Source: Mesorhizobium sp. STM 4661 (GTDB lineage Bacteria; Pseudomonadota; Alphaproteobacteria; Rhizobiales; Rhizobiaceae). Taken from it: DNA of 64,000 nt. Shown one piece after another: positions 567 through 63,135 of the stretch (positions are counted from its first letter, which is position 1; each line of letters starts with the position of its first letter). The stretch lies in assembly GCF_000359125.1 (NCBI RefSeq), contig NZ_CAAF010000003.1, forward strand, positions 124,001-188,000. The letters are read 5' to 3'. Under the pieces are notes generated by a model. That model was not told the origin of the DNA and did no database searches. It worked only from the letters and a program-made list of their open reading frames with translations. The position numbers and the translations under genes are program-made.

Positions 567-718
567 CCCCCCTCTGCCCTGCCGGGCATCTCCCCCACAA
601 GGGGGGAGATCGGCCGTCATGTTGTCTTTCGCCAATTGCCAACGTTGCAGGATTGAGCGAAGCGCTGAAGCCGCCAATCTCCCCCCTCGTGGGGGAGATG
701 TCCGGCAGGACAGAGGGG
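567..718. repeat. Palindromic intergenic repeat, class A copy 1
   Basis: Two arms of about 45 bases, CCCCCCTCTGCCCTGCCGGG(CATCTCCCCC...) and its imperfect reverse complement ending in GTCCGGCAGGACAGAGGGG, flank a roughly 60-base core. Each arm carries its own small hairpin (CTCCCCC-ACAA-GGGGGGAG). The same arms recur at 61461-61614. The element fills most of the gap between aroA and cmk and gives cmk a spurious in-frame upstream extension. Confidence 0.8.
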
Positions 719-45679: not shown

Positions 45680-45826
45680 CCTTCTCCCCTTGTGGGAGAA
45701 GGTGGCCGAGCGCAGCTCGGTCGGATGAGGGGTGTTCCAGCTTGGCATCGGCGGCGATCCGTCCAACACCCCTCATCCGTCTTGGCGCTGCGCGCCAATC
45801 CACCTTCTCCCACAAGGGGAGAAGGT
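45680..45826. repeat. Palindromic intergenic repeat, class B
   Basis: CCTTCTCCCCTTGTGGGAGAAGGTGG (left) and CCACCTTCTCCCACAAGGGGAGAAGG (right) enclose inner arms (CGGATGAGGGGTGTT with AACACCCCTCATCCG). The element fills most of the 262-base gap between the CobW and WD40 genes. It is unlike the class A element in sequence but has the same nested-hairpin design. Nothing else is seen in this gap. Confidence 0.85.
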
Positions 45827-46879: not shown

Positions 46880-47050
46880 GGGAGTACGGGAATAAGGGAG
46901 TAGGGGAGTAGGTACGCAGTGAGCGCCGCTCCCTATTCCCCTATTCCCCTATTCCCCTATTCCCCTATTCCCCTATTCCCCTATTCCCCTATTCCCCTAT
47001 TCCCCTATTCCCCTATTCCCCTATTCCCCTATTCCCCTATTCCCCTATTC
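46880..47050. repeat. Octanucleotide tandem array with inverted arm, locus 2
   Basis: A left arm of about four degenerate GGGARTAG units (46880-46912) begins right after the WD40 stop. After an 18-base spacer, fifteen perfect copies of CCCTATTC (46931-47050) form the inverted arm. The unit is the reverse complement of GGGAATAG, the same family as locus 1 with one base changed. The array encodes a repetitive PYSPIPLF peptide on the plus strand, which is regarded as non-coding. Confidence 0.93.
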
Positions 47051-47131
47051 CTGAACCATTGCAGGGCAGCCGCGCGGCCAATTGCGGTTCCGGGCGCCAA
47101 CTGGCTAGAGTGACGTACAAAAGAGGCGCCC

Positions 47132-57892: not shown

Positions 57893-58039
57893 CTAACCAT
57901 GACTTTGGGCTTGCCGCGAGCGATCCGGATTTGAGATACGCCCCGGCGCATACCAGACGAGGAGCTGAGTCACCGCCGACAACGCGACGAAATACAGGAT
58001 CGATCCTGCCCATAACATCAAGGTTGTTCTGCGAGTCAT
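57893..58039 (-). CDS. 48-residue membrane protein coupled to xdhC
   Basis: A short gene, ATG 58039 to TAG 57893, whose ATG overlaps the xdhC stop (ATGA). The product starts MTRRTTLML, continues as one membrane helix (WAGSILYFVALSAVTQLLVWY) and ends in a polar tail. Basic N-terminus before the helix favours the cytoplasmic side for the start. Translational coupling argues that it is real and part of the xdh operon. The role is unknown; it may anchor or assist XDH maturation. Nothing else is seen in 57762-57892. Confidence 0.7.
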   Translation of the reverse strand: MTRRTTLMLWAGSILYFVALSAVTQLLVWYAPGRISNPDRSRQAQSHG

Positions 58040-59028
58040 CGCGCCAGCTCAGTGGCGAACGCCGGTAATGTGAGGCGTCCGGTCGATTGCTGGCCGGACT
58101 TCACCAGCGCCGTCATGATCTGGGCTGCCGCGAGCGCCGCGATCACCTGCGGGCGCTTGTCCTTGACGGCATCGCCGCCGATCGGCGAGACGAGACGGGC
58201 GAACCCCGCCTCGGTACCTTCCGCTGACTTCAGAAACCAGCTCTTGAAGGTCGCTTTCTTGGTCCTGGAGCCGATCATGCCGACATAGGCGGTGTCGTTC
58301 CGCTTCAGCACCTCGGCGACGATGAGGAAGTCGAGAGCGTGGTCGTGGGTGAGGATGGCGAAAGCGGCGCCCGCTGGCGCCTCGCGCACCACGGCCTCGG
58401 GCATTGGCGTCAGCATCGTCTCGACCGTTTCCGGCATCCCCTCCAGCGCCTCGGCCCGCGTCTCGACGACGACGACATGCACCGGCAGCAAGGCCGCCGC
58501 CGACGCCAGCGCCTGGCCGACATGGCCACCCCCGAAGAGGTAGAGGTGAGGCAGATGCGCCTCCTCGGCCTCGGCATTGCGGATGAGTTCGGCCCCAAGG
58601 GCCGGGTTGAGCAGCCGTATCGATACCTCGACCCTGCCGCCGCAGCATTGGCCGATTTCCGGCCCAAGCGGAATGTCGAGCGTGGCGCGAGTATCCCTCC
58701 CCCTTGAGGGGAGGGTGGCGGCGAAGCCGTCGGGTGGGGTCGCCGCGGCAGTGCTCGACGCTCTGGCGGTGCCTTCCGAGACGGCCCCCTCTGGCCGCTT
58801 CGCGGCCATCTCCCCCTCAAGGGCGGAGAGAAGCAGCTGCCGGGCCTTGTCGATCGCCATGTATTCGAGCTGGCCGCCGCCGATCGTGCCTGATGTCGCC
58901 GATGCCGAGACCAGCATGAAGGCGCCGGTTTCGCGCGGCGTCGAGCCTTTCGTCGCCGCGACCTCGACCAGCGCAATGCGGCCCTGGCCAGCAAGGAAGT
59001 CTTTCAGGCTTTGCACTTTCGAGTTCAT
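58036..59028 (-). CDS. xdhC: Xanthine dehydrogenase accessory protein XdhC, with an in-frame repeat insertion
   Basis: A 330-residue XDH maturation factor, which sulfurates and inserts the molybdenum cofactor. GRIALVEVAATKGSTPRETGAFMLV and SGTIGGGQLEYMA are in the N-terminal part; GGRVEVS and FGGGHVGQALASAAALLPV start the Rossmann part; IGSRTKKATFKSW is near the end. Residues about 69-112 interrupt the family alignment: they are Ala/Gly/Arg/Pro-rich and are encoded by a palindromic repeat (58693-58831). ATG 59028 overlaps the xdhB stop (ATGA). A longer upstream frame runs into xdhB and is rejected. Confidence 0.93.
   Translation of the reverse strand: MNSKVQSLKDFLAGQGRIALVEVAATKGSTPRETGAFMLVSASATSGTIGGGQLEYMAIDKARQLLLSALEGEMAAKRPEGAVSEGTARASSTAAATPPDGFAATLPSRGRDTRATLDIPLGPEIGQCCGGRVEVSIRLLNPALGAELIRNAEAEEAHLPHLYLFGGGHVGQALASAAALLPVHVVVVETRAEALEGMPETVETMLTPMPEAVVREAPAGAAFAILTHDHALDFLIVAEVLKRNDTAYVGMIGSRTKKATFKSWFLKSAEGTEAGFARLVSPIGGDAVKDKRPQVIAALAAAQIMTALVKSGQQSTGRLTLPAFATELAR
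58693..58831. repeat. Palindromic repeat inserted in frame inside xdhC
   Basis: Arms TCCCTCCCCCTTGAGGGGAG (left) and CTCCCCCTCAAGGGCGGAGA (right), each self-complementary, flank inner pairs (GGCGGCGAAGCCGTC and GGCCGCTTCGCGGCC). It has the nested design of the intergenic elements at 567-718, 45680-45826 and 61461-61614. Its core length is a multiple of three and it has no stop codon in the xdhC frame. Confidence 0.85.
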
Positions 59029-61427
59029 TTTTGCATTCCCGGTTGGGAAATATAGGCTTTTTTGGCCGGATTTGCACTTTCTGCCCCCGCCTTGGCCGCA
59101 CCTTTCAATCGCTCGATCGCCATCAGCACGCGTTCTGGTGTTGCGGGGGCATCGAGGCGCGGACAGACCTTGTGATCGGCGACGCTCGCCACCGCATCCG
59201 ACAGCGCATGCAGCACCGACATGCCTAACGGGAACGGTGGCTCGCCGACGGCCTTGGAACGATGCACCGTTGGTTCGCTCGCTTCCGGCCAGTCGGCCAG
59301 CGTCACATTGAAGATCTTCGGCCGGTCGGAGGCGAGCGGGATTTTGTAGGTCGACGGCGCATGGGTGCCCAGCCGGCCCTTGGCGTCCCACCACAATTCC
59401 TCGGTCGTCAGCCAGCCCATGCCCTGGATGAAGCCGCCCTCGATCTGGCCGAGGTCGATGGCGCGGTTCAGCGAGCGGCCTGTGTCGTGCAGGATGTCGG
59501 TGCGCTCGACCATGTATTCGCCGGTCAGCGTGTCGACCGAGACTTCGGAGCAGGAAGCGCCATAGGCGAAATAGTAGAATGGACGGCCTTGGCCCTTGTC
59601 GCGGTTCCAGTGGATCTTCGGCGTCTTGTAGAAACCCGCCGCGGAAAGCTGGATGCGGGCCATATAGGCCTGCTTGACGAGGTCGGCGAAGGCGATCTCC
59701 TGATTGCCGATGCGCACCCGGTTGGGCAGGAACAGCACCTGATCGCGCGGCACCTGGTATTTTTCGGCGGCGAAATCGGTCAGCCGGTCCTTGATCTGCC
59801 GGGCGCCGTTCTGCGCCGCCATGCCGTTGAGGTCGGTGCCGGACGATGCGGCGGTGGCCGAGGTGTTCGGCACCTTGCCGGTGGTCGTCGCGGTGATCTT
59901 GACCTGGTCGAGATCGATCTGGAACTCTTCCGCCACCACTTGCGCCACCTTGACGTAGAGACCCTGCCCCATCTCGGTGCCGCCATGGTTCAGATGCACC
60001 GAACCGTCGGTGTAGACATGCACCAGCGCGCCGGCCTGGTTGTAATGCGTGGCGGTGAAGGAGATGCCGAACTTGACCGGCGTCAGTGCCAGGCCACGCT
60101 TGATGAAGCGGCTGTTGGCGTTGAACGCATCGATGGCGCGGCGGCGCCTCGCATAGTCCGCGCTCACCTCCAGTTCGGCGACGATGCGATGGATGATGTT
60201 GTCCTCGATCGTCTGGTGATAGGGCGTGACGTTGCGGTCTGAGGTGCCATAAAAATTCTGCTTGCGGATTTCGAGCGGATCCTTGCCGACGGCGAAGGCG
60301 ACCTCGTCGATGACACGCTCGGCTCCGACCATGCCTTGCGGGCCGCCGAAGCCGCGAAAGGCGGTGTTCGACACGGTGTTGGTGTAGAGCGGCGCAGATT
60401 GTGCGTGCACCGCCGGCCAGAAATAGGTGTTGTCGCAGTGGAACAGGGCGCGGTCGGTGACCGGGCCGGACAGGTCCGACGAGAAGCCGCAGCGCGCCGC
60501 GAACATGAAGTCGACGCCGAGGATGTTGCCGTCGTCGTCAAAGCCGACCTCGTAGTCGACGAGAAAATCGTGACGCTTGCCGGTGGCGATCATGTCGTCG
60601 TCGCGATCGGGACGGATTTTTACCGCGCGGTGGTGCTTCTTGGCAGCAATCGCGGCCAATGCCGCAAACTGGTTGCCTTGCGTTTCCTTGCCACCGAACC
60701 CGCCGCCCATCCGGCGGATTTCCACCGTGATGGCGTTGCTCGGCACGCCGAGCGCGTGGCTGACCATATGCTGAACTTCGCTCGGATGCTGGGTCGAGGA
60801 ATAGATGGTGACATCCTGGTCCTCGCCGGGAATGGCCATGGCGATATGGCCCTCGAGATAGAAATGCTCCTGTCCGCCGATGCGCATCCGCCCCTTGAGC
60901 CGGCGCGGCGCCGCCTTGATCGCCGCGGCGGCATCGCCGCGCTTCAGCGTCAGCGGCGGCGTGACCAGCTTGTCTTTCCTGGGATCGAGCTCGCCGATGT
61001 CGGTGACGAAAGGGAGTTCCTTGTACTCGACCTTGGCCAGCCTGGTGGCGCGGCGCGCCTGTTCGCGCGTCTCGGCGATGACGCAGAAAATCGGCTGGCC
61101 ATGGAACTGCACCTTGCCGTCGGCAAGCACCGGCTCGTCATGGCGGCCGGTCGGCGAAATGTCGTTCTCGCCAGGAACGTCCTTTGCCGTCAGCACGTCG
61201 ACGACACCGGGTGCGGCACGCACCGCCGACAGGTCCATGCTGGCGATGGTGGCATGCGTGGCCGTGCAAAGCCCGAGACAGCCATGCAGCGTGCTGGCTG
61301 GTTCCGGCATGTCGTCGATATAGATCGCCGTGCCGCTGACATGCTTGTGCGCGGAATCATGGCGCTGGTCGGTGGCAACGCCGCCGGAGATTTTTTGCGC
61401 CTTGAGGTTGGGAGCGTGCGTGGTCAT
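59025..61427 (-). CDS. xdhB: Xanthine dehydrogenase molybdopterin-binding subunit
   Basis: An 800-residue large subunit carrying the molybdenum cofactor that oxidises hypoxanthine and xanthine to urate. GGGFGGKETQGNQFAALAAIAA, FRGFGGPQGMVGAERV, HGGTEMGQGLYVKVAQV and ATAASSGTDLNG are in the expected order; the C-terminal catalytic glutamate region is KAVGEPPFPLGMSV. ATG 61427 fits the family start; the frame is open 285 bases upstream, but that part is repeat-derived and rejected. The stop overlaps xdhC. Confidence 0.97.
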   Translation of the reverse strand: MTTHAPNLKAQKISGGVATDQRHDSAHKHVSGTAIYIDDMPEPASTLHGCLGLCTATHATIASMDLSAVRAAPGVVDVLTAKDVPGENDISPTGRHDEPVLADGKVQFHGQPIFCVIAETREQARRATRLAKVEYKELPFVTDIGELDPRKDKLVTPPLTLKRGDAAAAIKAAPRRLKGRMRIGGQEHFYLEGHIAMAIPGEDQDVTIYSSTQHPSEVQHMVSHALGVPSNAITVEIRRMGGGFGGKETQGNQFAALAAIAAKKHHRAVKIRPDRDDDMIATGKRHDFLVDYEVGFDDDGNILGVDFMFAARCGFSSDLSGPVTDRALFHCDNTYFWPAVHAQSAPLYTNTVSNTAFRGFGGPQGMVGAERVIDEVAFAVGKDPLEIRKQNFYGTSDRNVTPYHQTIEDNIIHRIVAELEVSADYARRRRAIDAFNANSRFIKRGLALTPVKFGISFTATHYNQAGALVHVYTDGSVHLNHGGTEMGQGLYVKVAQVVAEEFQIDLDQVKITATTTGKVPNTSATAASSGTDLNGMAAQNGARQIKDRLTDFAAEKYQVPRDQVLFLPNRVRIGNQEIAFADLVKQAYMARIQLSAAGFYKTPKIHWNRDKGQGRPFYYFAYGASCSEVSVDTLTGEYMVERTDILHDTGRSLNRAIDLGQIEGGFIQGMGWLTTEELWWDAKGRLGTHAPSTYKIPLASDRPKIFNVTLADWPEASEPTVHRSKAVGEPPFPLGMSVLHALSDAVASVADHKVCPRLDAPATPERVLMAIERLKGAAKAGAESANPAKKAYISQPGMQK

Positions 61428-61460
61428 TGAACAACCCCGGTGATGCGGTGTTCCTTCACA

Positions 61461-61614
61461 CCCCCCTCCTGTCCTGCCGGACATCTCCCCCGCAAGGGGG
61501 GAGATTGGCAGCTTCAACCTCACCGCCCGTTCAACAGTACCGGCGATTGGCGAAAGCCGACGCGACACCCGATCTCCCCCCTTGCGGGGGAGATGGCCGG
61601 CAGGCCAGAGGGGG
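61461..61614. repeat. Palindromic intergenic repeat, class A copy 2
   Basis: Arms CCCCCCTCCTGTCCTGCCGG(ACATCTCCCCC) and the inverted GGCCGGCAGGCCAGAGGGGGG flank a core of about 60 bases. The arms match the element at 567-718. It sits between xdhA and xdhB, so the operon transcript would carry this hairpin in its middle. Nothing else is seen in 61428-61653. Confidence 0.88.
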
Positions 61615-61653
61615 GTGGGAAGGATCGCGGCCTTCAACATCGTCGTCGCCATC

Positions 61654-63135
61654 TCACGCCGCCTCGTATCTTGAAACCTGGATCGGCGCCTTGGTGCCGG
61701 TGGTCTCGACAAAGAAACGCAGCAACAGGTTCCTCGCCGCCAGAGCCCGGTATTCGGCAGAGGCCCGCATATCGGTCAGCGGTGTGAAATCCCTGGCGTA
61801 TTCGGCCATCGCAGCCTCTACCGTTTCTTCCGTCCACGGCTTGCCGAGCAACGCCTTTTCGACAGCCGACGCGCGCTTCGGCGTTGCGGCCATGCCGCCA
61901 TAGGCGATGCGGATATCGGCCACGCTGCCGTCCTTGGCGAGCGTCAGGCAGAAGGCGCCGAGGGCCGCGGTGATATCCTCGTCGCGGCGTTTGGTGATCT
62001 TGTAGACGGCAAACTTGGTGCCCTTGGCCGGCACCGGCACATGCACGGCCTCGACGAATTCGCCTGATAGCCGGTCCTGCTTGCCATAGGCGATAAAATA
62101 ATCTTCCAGCGGGATCGTGCGCCGCTTCTTGCCCCGCCGCAACGTGAGTTGTGCACCGAGCGCGATCAGCGGCGGCGGCGTGTCGCCAATCGGCGAGCCG
62201 TTGGCGATGTTGCCGCCGATCGTGCCCATGTTGCGCACCTGCTCGCCGCCGATGCGGTCGAACAGCGGCCCCAGCGCCGGGATGCGCTTCGACAGCGTAG
62301 CGAAGGCTTCGCTGTAGGTGGCGCCGGCGCCGATCGAAATCACGCCCTTGTCCTCGGAAATCGTGCACAGACCATCGAGATTACCGATGAAGATCACCGG
62401 CGAAATGTCACGCATATGCTTGGTCACCCACAGGCCGACATCGGTCGAGCCGGCAACGATGGTGGCGCCCGGTTCCTTGTCGAGCACGCTTGCCAGATCG
62501 TCGGCATTGGCCGGCACGACCAGCCGCTGCTTGCCCGAGCCGATCTCGACGCGTGTACCGTCCTTCATCGCCGCAAGCTTCGCGGTGATCGCCTTGCGCT
62601 CCGCCGCCAGCGGATCCTTGGCCGCCCTGCCGTAGCTGGAAATGGCGCGTGCGGCGCGGACGATCGCCTCATAGCCGGTGCAGCGGCAGAGATTGCCCTG
62701 CAGCGCCTTCTCGATGGCCGCGTCCGACGGCTCCGGCAATTTCATCCAGAGCGCGTAGAGCGACATGACGAAGCCCGGCGTGCAGAAGCCGCATTGCGAG
62801 CCGTGGAAATCGACCATCGCCTGCTGTACAGGGTGCAACCTGTTTCCATCGCCACGCAGATGCTCGACGGTGACGACATGGGTGCCGTCGAGCGAACCGA
62901 GGAAACGGATGCAGGCATTGAGGCTCTCATAGACCAGCCTGCCGGCGGAAAGCCGCCCGACCAGCACGGTGCAGGCGCCGCAATCGCCCTCGGCGCAGCC
63001 TTCCTTGGTGCCGCGCAGCGCGCGGTTGAGCCGCAGCCAGTCGAGCAAGGTCGCGTTGGGCGCGACAGTCGTCAGCGCCACATCCTCACCATTCAGGATG
63101 AAGCGGATCTCGTTGCGTGTCTTGACCTTGGCCAT
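61654..63135 (-). CDS. xdhA: Xanthine dehydrogenase small subunit (2Fe-2S and FAD)
   Basis: A 493-residue subunit bearing the two [2Fe-2S] clusters and FAD. The first cluster has GCAEGDCGACTVL; the second has SQCGFCTPGFVMS and GNLCRCTGY. The FAD domain starts near residue 200 with VAGSTDVGLW and has GTIGGNIANGSPIGD; a C-terminal CO dehydrogenase flavoprotein-type domain follows. Electrons go from the molybdenum subunit through the clusters to FAD and NAD. Its ATG is four bases from the uraH stop on the same strand. Confidence 0.97.
   Translation of the reverse strand: MAKVKTRNEIRFILNGEDVALTTVAPNATLLDWLRLNRALRGTKEGCAEGDCGACTVLVGRLSAGRLVYESLNACIRFLGSLDGTHVVTVEHLRGDGNRLHPVQQAMVDFHGSQCGFCTPGFVMSLYALWMKLPEPSDAAIEKALQGNLCRCTGYEAIVRAARAISSYGRAAKDPLAAERKAITAKLAAMKDGTRVEIGSGKQRLVVPANADDLASVLDKEPGATIVAGSTDVGLWVTKHMRDISPVIFIGNLDGLCTISEDKGVISIGAGATYSEAFATLSKRIPALGPLFDRIGGEQVRNMGTIGGNIANGSPIGDTPPPLIALGAQLTLRRGKKRRTIPLEDYFIAYGKQDRLSGEFVEAVHVPVPAKGTKFAVYKITKRRDEDITAALGAFCLTLAKDGSVADIRIAYGGMAATPKRASAVEKALLGKPWTEETVEAAMAEYARDFTPLTDMRASAEYRALAARNLLLRFFVETTGTKAPIQVSRYEAA

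Follow-up and report, generated by a model that had tools for sequence, protein, structure and literature searches.

Palindromic repeats that are translated as part of the genes they occupy are best known from Rickettsia; some free-living genomes have also been reported to contain them, and protein-coding repeats of this kind are likewise on record for Wolbachia. REPINs consist of two REP-like units in inverted arrangement, which form one long hairpin and are mobilised by RAYT transposases. Rhizobia possess the RIMEs (Rhizobium-specific intergenic mosaic elements), which are palindromic, composed of mosaic units and located between genes. The RPEs of Rickettsia, as described in passages of two papers, are scattered palindromes of about 105-150 bp, nearly half of them in frame in genes, where they encode a conserved peptide; a guanylate kinase tagged by an RPE is translated and active (PMC2229807, PMC10969869). 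Intragenic REPs tagged with GTAG or CGTC occur as units and dimers within genes, many of them DNA repair or tRNA synthetase genes, and two Xanthomonas species carry different REPs at roughly one and the same position in recB (Di Nocera et al. 2013, PMC3733652). The main text of the latter paper mentions neither Mesorhizobium nor xdhC, and among the top-matching open-licence papers, taken by their titles and the starts of their abstracts, none concerns in-gene palindromes of Mesorhizobium or the XdhC loop.

One element of this general type lies within xdhC in the window, the stretch of 64,000 nucleotides of Mesorhizobium sp. STM 4661 DNA that was analysed (Table 1). The initial annotation had proposed a nested-hairpin repeat carried in frame inside this gene, and this was borne out. 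The element is 146 bp long, its DNA spans approximately XdhC residues 65-113, no stop codon interrupts the xdhC frame within it, and on the xdhC strand it folds at -86.5 kcal/mol (z = -4.67), with none of 200 shuffled sequences as stable. Its two units resemble each other (score 41 against a shuffle maximum of 28). The repeat does occur elsewhere: the STM 4661 genome holds at least 71 matches to its DNA with E <= 0.01 (scoring covered 40 of 144 candidates), and three other near full-length copies show 91, 85 and 83% identity. This repeat is referred to below as family A.

Table 1. Features of the window considered in the text (nucleotide positions in the window; residues where indicated)
Feature	Position	Strand	Remarks
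xdhC	58036..59028	minus	ATG at 59028, 330 aa
Nested palindrome of type A, carried in frame by xdhC	58690..58835	minus	left unit, spacer, inverted right unit
XdhC_CoxI (PF02625)	XdhC residues 15-67		Pfam, 54.1 bits
XdhC Rossmann domain (PF13478)	XdhC residues 162-304		Pfam, 99.1 bits
Two-unit element, left-unit family as in xdhC	567..718	.	inverted repeats I1, I2
Two-unit element, left-unit family as in xdhC	61461..61614	.	inverted repeat I3
Nested palindrome, similar design	45680..45826	.	same family as xdhC element not demonstrated

A common design had also been proposed with three further repeats of the window, and a shared left unit was borne out for two of them. The left unit of the xdhC element reaches a best local score of 49 against the element at 567 (shuffle maximum 28) and of 57 against that at 61461 (shuffle maximum 29), whereas the score of 30 against the palindrome at 45680 merely equals the shuffle maximum of 30. 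The element at 61461 occupies the gap between two ORFs, the upstream one ending at 61654 and the next one having its likely ATG at 61427; we take these genes to be xdhA and xdhB. It is open in the frame of the xdhB-like ORF, and the mechanically called ORF runs through it (61427-61712); lying 5' of the likely ATG, it is probably untranslated. Rfam models at gathering thresholds gave no match within the window. A tandem array of an 8-base unit (CCCTATTC) was also observed at 46907-47075, with 15 overlapping members in the repeat listing.

Compared with the described systems, the element shares two inverted units with REPINs, from which it differs in that its units are longer and nested. With RIMEs it shares, by description, a rhizobial host, a palindromic character and mosaic units, the difference being that RIMEs are described as intergenic. 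Like the tagged REPs it places units inside genes; unlike them, its ends, which read TCTCCCCC and GGGAGGG in the alignment, carry no terminal GTAG or CGTC tag, as judged by eye.

The host protein belongs to the XdhC/CoxI family, both expected Pfam domains being present, and its nearest solved folds are the XdhC-type proteins 3on5 and 2we8 (fold match). The conserved blocks reported by the initial annotation on both sides of the insert are confirmed by these two domains and by the motifs that bound the loop. In an AlphaFold2 model (52 sequences, residues 1-310; mean pLDDT 79.1, pTM 0.70), residues 72-111 form the sole segment with pLDDT below 50, other ten-residue blocks ranging from 69 to 93; low values are partly expected there because the alignment is variable in this region. 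The segment sits between a helix (52-75) and a strand (114-121), in agreement with the earlier placement of the insert in a loop between two structured parts. The loop measures 65 residues in STM 4661, against 23-24 in most distant relatives, and the insert appears to be translated, giving XdhC a floppy additional loop.

To follow this loop across relatives, it was read between the motifs GGGQLE[FY] and GQCCGG at 181 loci, comprising the window, 80 loci from named records and 100 from genomes of the same family. The 80 were the best of 169 confirmed relatives and represent Mesorhizobium, two Aminobacter and one record titled Hyphomicrobiales. Both bounding motifs lie in a single open frame at 180 of the 181 loci, including 99 of the 100 from same-family genomes, where L210 was unresolved. 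A length of 23-24 residues is seen at 33 of the 39 readable loci that are most distant, and at 16 of the 60 nearer loci; 21 of those 60 have at least 39 residues. The 153 rows placed on a tree comprise 42 with A, 16 with B or a B-like insert, 7 with C, 3 with other long loops, 1 with an A remnant and 84 with short loops (23-41 residues), and among the 79 rows formed by the window and Mesorhizobium, 45 carry A, B or C and 34 carry none of these; such counts are not population frequencies, because only the best-matching relatives were kept. In Mesorhizobium and allied genera the loop is either short or occupied by a palindrome that belongs to A or to one of two further dispersed families, B and C, and the comparison brought up no non-repeat insert shared by the relatives.

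Codon positions distinguish the insert from the gene around it. Across 29 xdhC genes with A, p-distances at the three positions are 0.149/0.137/0.143 in the insert, and 0.091/0.109/0.369 and 0.174/0.073/0.387 in the two flanks. The third-position bias of the flanks, together with the flat profile of the insert, therefore indicates a constrained host protein and an insert without visible protein-level constraint; on these distances, the flanking XdhC protein is under purifying selection and the insert lacks codon periodicity. The idea that xdhC is a pseudogene whose open frame is accidental draws on the oddity of a loop 42 residues longer than usual in a conserved enzyme chaperone. It is already contradicted, and has a negligible probability, given that both flanks of the insert vary predominantly at third positions in the 29 insert-bearing genes and that the frame is open at nearly all loci, in a sample of the best 80 of 169 relatives that would under-represent broken genes.

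The units of A differ by p-distances of 0.06-0.11, and this low divergence, combined with flat periodicity, fits a repeat family. Conservation of the units at the DNA level without codon periodicity would also be compatible with an insert that is functional and selected, for example as an mRNA hairpin tuning xdhC expression in its operon or as a linker altering cofactor handling, and the second element upstream in the same gene row could be read in the same way. A selected role is nevertheless distinctly improbable, since the 34 Mesorhizobium rows mentioned above do without A, B and C, the loop is filled by different families, and the same element is present in other genes.

The three families are not equally distinct. 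Each of 8 genomes holds between 4 and 53 matches to family B, and each of 7 genomes between 2 and 69 to family C. The right unit of A resembles B (score 43, shuffle maximum 26), and C shows no similarity above shuffles to the units of A or to B; in blastn clustering, A and B form one component and C another. The view of A, B and C as three unrelated families was ruled out by the resemblance between B and the right unit of A, and because A and B have a related unit in common, C alone is demonstrably a separate family.

Orientation and phylogeny bear on whether the loop was entered once or repeatedly. Family B occupies the xdhC loop in both orientations, and two genomes of one genus have inserts that are 93% identical but lie on opposite strands (L134, L137). 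Family C likewise occurs in both (L075, L080, L089, L157 and L164 against L119 and L129). Opposite orientations could also stem from in-place inversion between the arms. On a tree of the joined flanks, built by a quick method with 47 of 150 inner branches weak, the loop classes require at least 48 changes; taken singly, A requires 24 for its 42 rows, B 15 for 16 and C 7 for 7. Interspecies gene exchange could inflate these counts. All 42 A copies of the tree set share one orientation, as expected if A had inserted once in the ancestor of Mesorhizobium and allied genera, had been inherited vertically, and had then decayed, been deleted or been overwritten. Such a history would also account for A in the xdhC of Aminobacter (L106, L108) and for A-like remnants, such as FSPSRD, in short-loop species (L099). 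It is, however, rather unlikely, as both orientations of B and C are found in this loop, no similarity between C and A was detectable, at least 24 changes are required for A on a tree with many weak forks, and the unit p-distances are far below the 0.37-0.39 of the flank third positions. The case for recurrent invasion is carried by family C and by the occurrence of both orientations.

Composite inserts were noted as well. A further palindrome (peptide ...EGREKANDLAFS...) is nested in A in the xdhC of L052, L056 and L062 and in the hyuA insert of L333. A mosaic xdhC insert made of a left unit, an inverted left-type unit and a second right unit is present in L060 and L114, which probably represent one genome.

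Copies of A are also found in other genes, which the initial annotation had missed. In the STM 4661 genome, the 71 matches merge to 40 sites (six opposite-strand duplicates excluded). Each of the four full-length copies of A lies in frame in a gene, namely xdhC, hyuA, hyuB (in the opposite orientation) and glyQ, compared with one of the 36 other repeat sites (Fisher P = 5.5e-5 for a grouping made post hoc). That one site lies outside the window; it is built from several repeat units and contributes about 93 residues in frame to a molybdopterin oxidoreductase (L217, C87:108360-108639), presumably nitrate reductase-like. The symmetric two-unit form was found in frame in two hyuB loci (L323, L325). 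Open frames alone were rejected as an explanation for the rarity of symmetric two-unit elements in genes, these elements having on average 2.7 of six frames open (n = 20), against 2-4 in the four A copies.

The count of in-gene copies was extended to 12 genomes, STM 4661 and 11 others picked for having A in xdhC. Of the copies with at least 105 aligned bases, 39 of 71 are in frame in coding sequence, a fraction biased upward because 11 of the 12 genomes were chosen for A in xdhC and the query was itself an in-gene copy; 29 of the 71 were not called coding. In the codon-score test applied, a copy was taken as in frame when the reading frame given by its flanks passed through the element without a stop, which 36 did automatically, with three missed xdhC copies added; three plausible in-gene copies, one in glyS and two in a PDH E2-like gene, remained uncounted. 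A stricter in-gene test overlooked known xdhC copies; it placed 28 of the 71 in frame, assigned a frame difference to 2 and left 41 as other.

The hosts supported by Pfam include hydantoinase A/B, the alpha and beta subunits of glycyl-tRNA synthetase, UvrD helicase, a class I tRNA synthetase, a CoA ligase with ATP-grasp, UvrB, DNA polymerase I, FdhD, an amidase and an Lhr-type helicase. One host gene considered to be ftsK was reassigned, its Pfam match being uvrB. Another, which we assumed to be a GNAT protein, had no Pfam support for that label at 1e-8. Element copies were observed in the uvrB loci L262, L268 and L279 and in the uvrD loci L239, L244, L251, L259 and L265. These hosts overlap with the functions listed for intragenic REPs in the part of the literature covered, among them uvrB, UvrD/Rep helicase, polymerase I and tRNA synthetases (PMC3733652).

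Occupancy of the same host loops recurs. In the STM 4661 genome, no gene for a glycyl-tRNA synthetase alpha subunit was detected besides the glyQ that carries the element; of 30 glyQ loci fetched, 28 were readable, 6 of them with a filled loop and 22 with a short one. In one genome (G160), a single element copy lies in glyQ and two or three lie in the adjacent glyS (L233, L242). At hyuA, where 24 of the 30 loci fetched were readable, 7 contain A, one a nested form and one another form of 70 residues, while 11 show a 27-residue stretch without insert and 4 other short forms.

The reading frames used by A are restricted. The 39 coding copies employ two of the six frames, S0 (33 copies and also L241, for which the script gave S1 once the left anchor had been lost but whose peptide is that of S0) and O2 (5 copies), leaving S1 and O1 unused though they are open in 24 and 18 of these copies, respectively. 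Even use of the presently open frames has P = 4.6e-5 over 17 site-and-orientation combinations (15 loops, hand-grouped, one copy each), or about 7e-4 after multiplication by the 15 possible frame pairs, the pair having been chosen post hoc. In the reference copy, S0 and O2 encode peptides with net charges of 0 and +1 and no tryptophan, whereas the products of S1, O1 and S2 are rich in arginine, their net charges being +10, +13 and +5, and O0 contains two tryptophans. Among the 29 copies not called coding, S0 and O2 are open in 24 and 24 and the next two frames in 20 and 16 (P = 0.02), which is only suggestive of benign frames being kept, given that the frames of a palindrome depend on one another and that coding copies may be among those 29. 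Length between anchors, taken modulo 3, was set aside as a measure, the right anchor being misplaced in 12 copies and 5 copies lacking one anchor or both.

Repeated occupancy of the same sites could alternatively reflect true insertion targeting, in which the mobiliser recognises the DNA of the site, so that occupancy records target choice instead of survival. The same glyQ site is filled in STM 4661 and in a genome of another genus, and several genomes have occupied sites in hyuA, hyuB and uvrD, as targeting would predict. We regard it as improbable that targeting explains the pattern: the xdhC site is also used by the unrelated family C, no common target sequence was noticed by eye at the hyuA, hyuB, glyQ and xdhC junctions, and the preference for mild frames points to selection on the product.

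The search for a mobilising enzyme centred on the single Y1-type transposase gene (Y1_Tnp) detected in the STM 4661 genome (L111, C52:99785-100147), which we take to be IS200-like and which is flanked by small hairpins of its own. No element units were found in the 3.4 kb of this locus (scores of 20 against shuffle maxima of 25-28), and this Y1/RAYT transposase is not supported as the mobiliser, as the adjoining hairpins differ and no element unit lies beside the gene. The link between a REPIN and its cognate RAYT thus has no counterpart at the one Y1_Tnp locus. No target-site duplication was seen by eye at xdhC, glyQ or hyuA, and no sister pair offered a clean empty site.

Taken together, the insert is very probably a non-autonomous palindromic repeat whose in-frame insertions into protein loops have been translated and tolerated, and have then decayed, been lost or been replaced. 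The initial reading of an in-frame palindrome therefore survives, and it was too narrow in overlooking that several families use the loop and that further genes serve as hosts. A palindrome of two nested-hairpin units, inverted around a spacer, would be transposed by some enzyme, and its copies would enter genes irrespective of frame. Most in-gene insertions would then be purged, including those that break the frame or are read in a harmful one, and the survivors would be those of a length divisible by three, open in a mild frame and situated in loops. Translated as disordered extra loops, they would drift neutrally and be shortened or deleted in frame, and permissive loops may be re-invaded by the same or other palindromic families. 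A more far-reaching proposal, which we advance tentatively as possible rather than probable, is that A is a gene-dwelling mobile repeat with two benign frames, one per strand, and could therefore insert in either orientation as a harmless translated loop; a limited number of enzyme loops in these bacteria would serve as standing landing pads, also for at least one unrelated palindrome. It draws on the in-gene position of all four A copies of STM 4661 and, suggestively, on the open mild frames of copies not called coding.

Compared by description and not by sequence, the element works like an RPE. It resembles the RPEs in its length of 146 bp, in its dispersal and in its in-frame copies (in a sample biased towards in-gene ones), as well as in the peptide of a preferred frame, S0 or O2 in all 39 coding copies. 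It differs in that its hosts are rhizobia and allied genera, several palindromic families occupy the same loop, and only two frames are used.

The setting differs as well, as these are mostly free-living soil bacteria with many sequenced species, in which the same loops, including one in glyQ, can be compared when filled, short, reduced to a remnant or re-invaded. This would make it possible to test by what means these repeats move, how frequently a protein takes in about 40 new residues unharmed, and whether new protein segments originate in this manner. For annotation, it is a warning that variable loops of XdhC, HyuA/B, GlyQ and UvrD in these genera can be repeat DNA.
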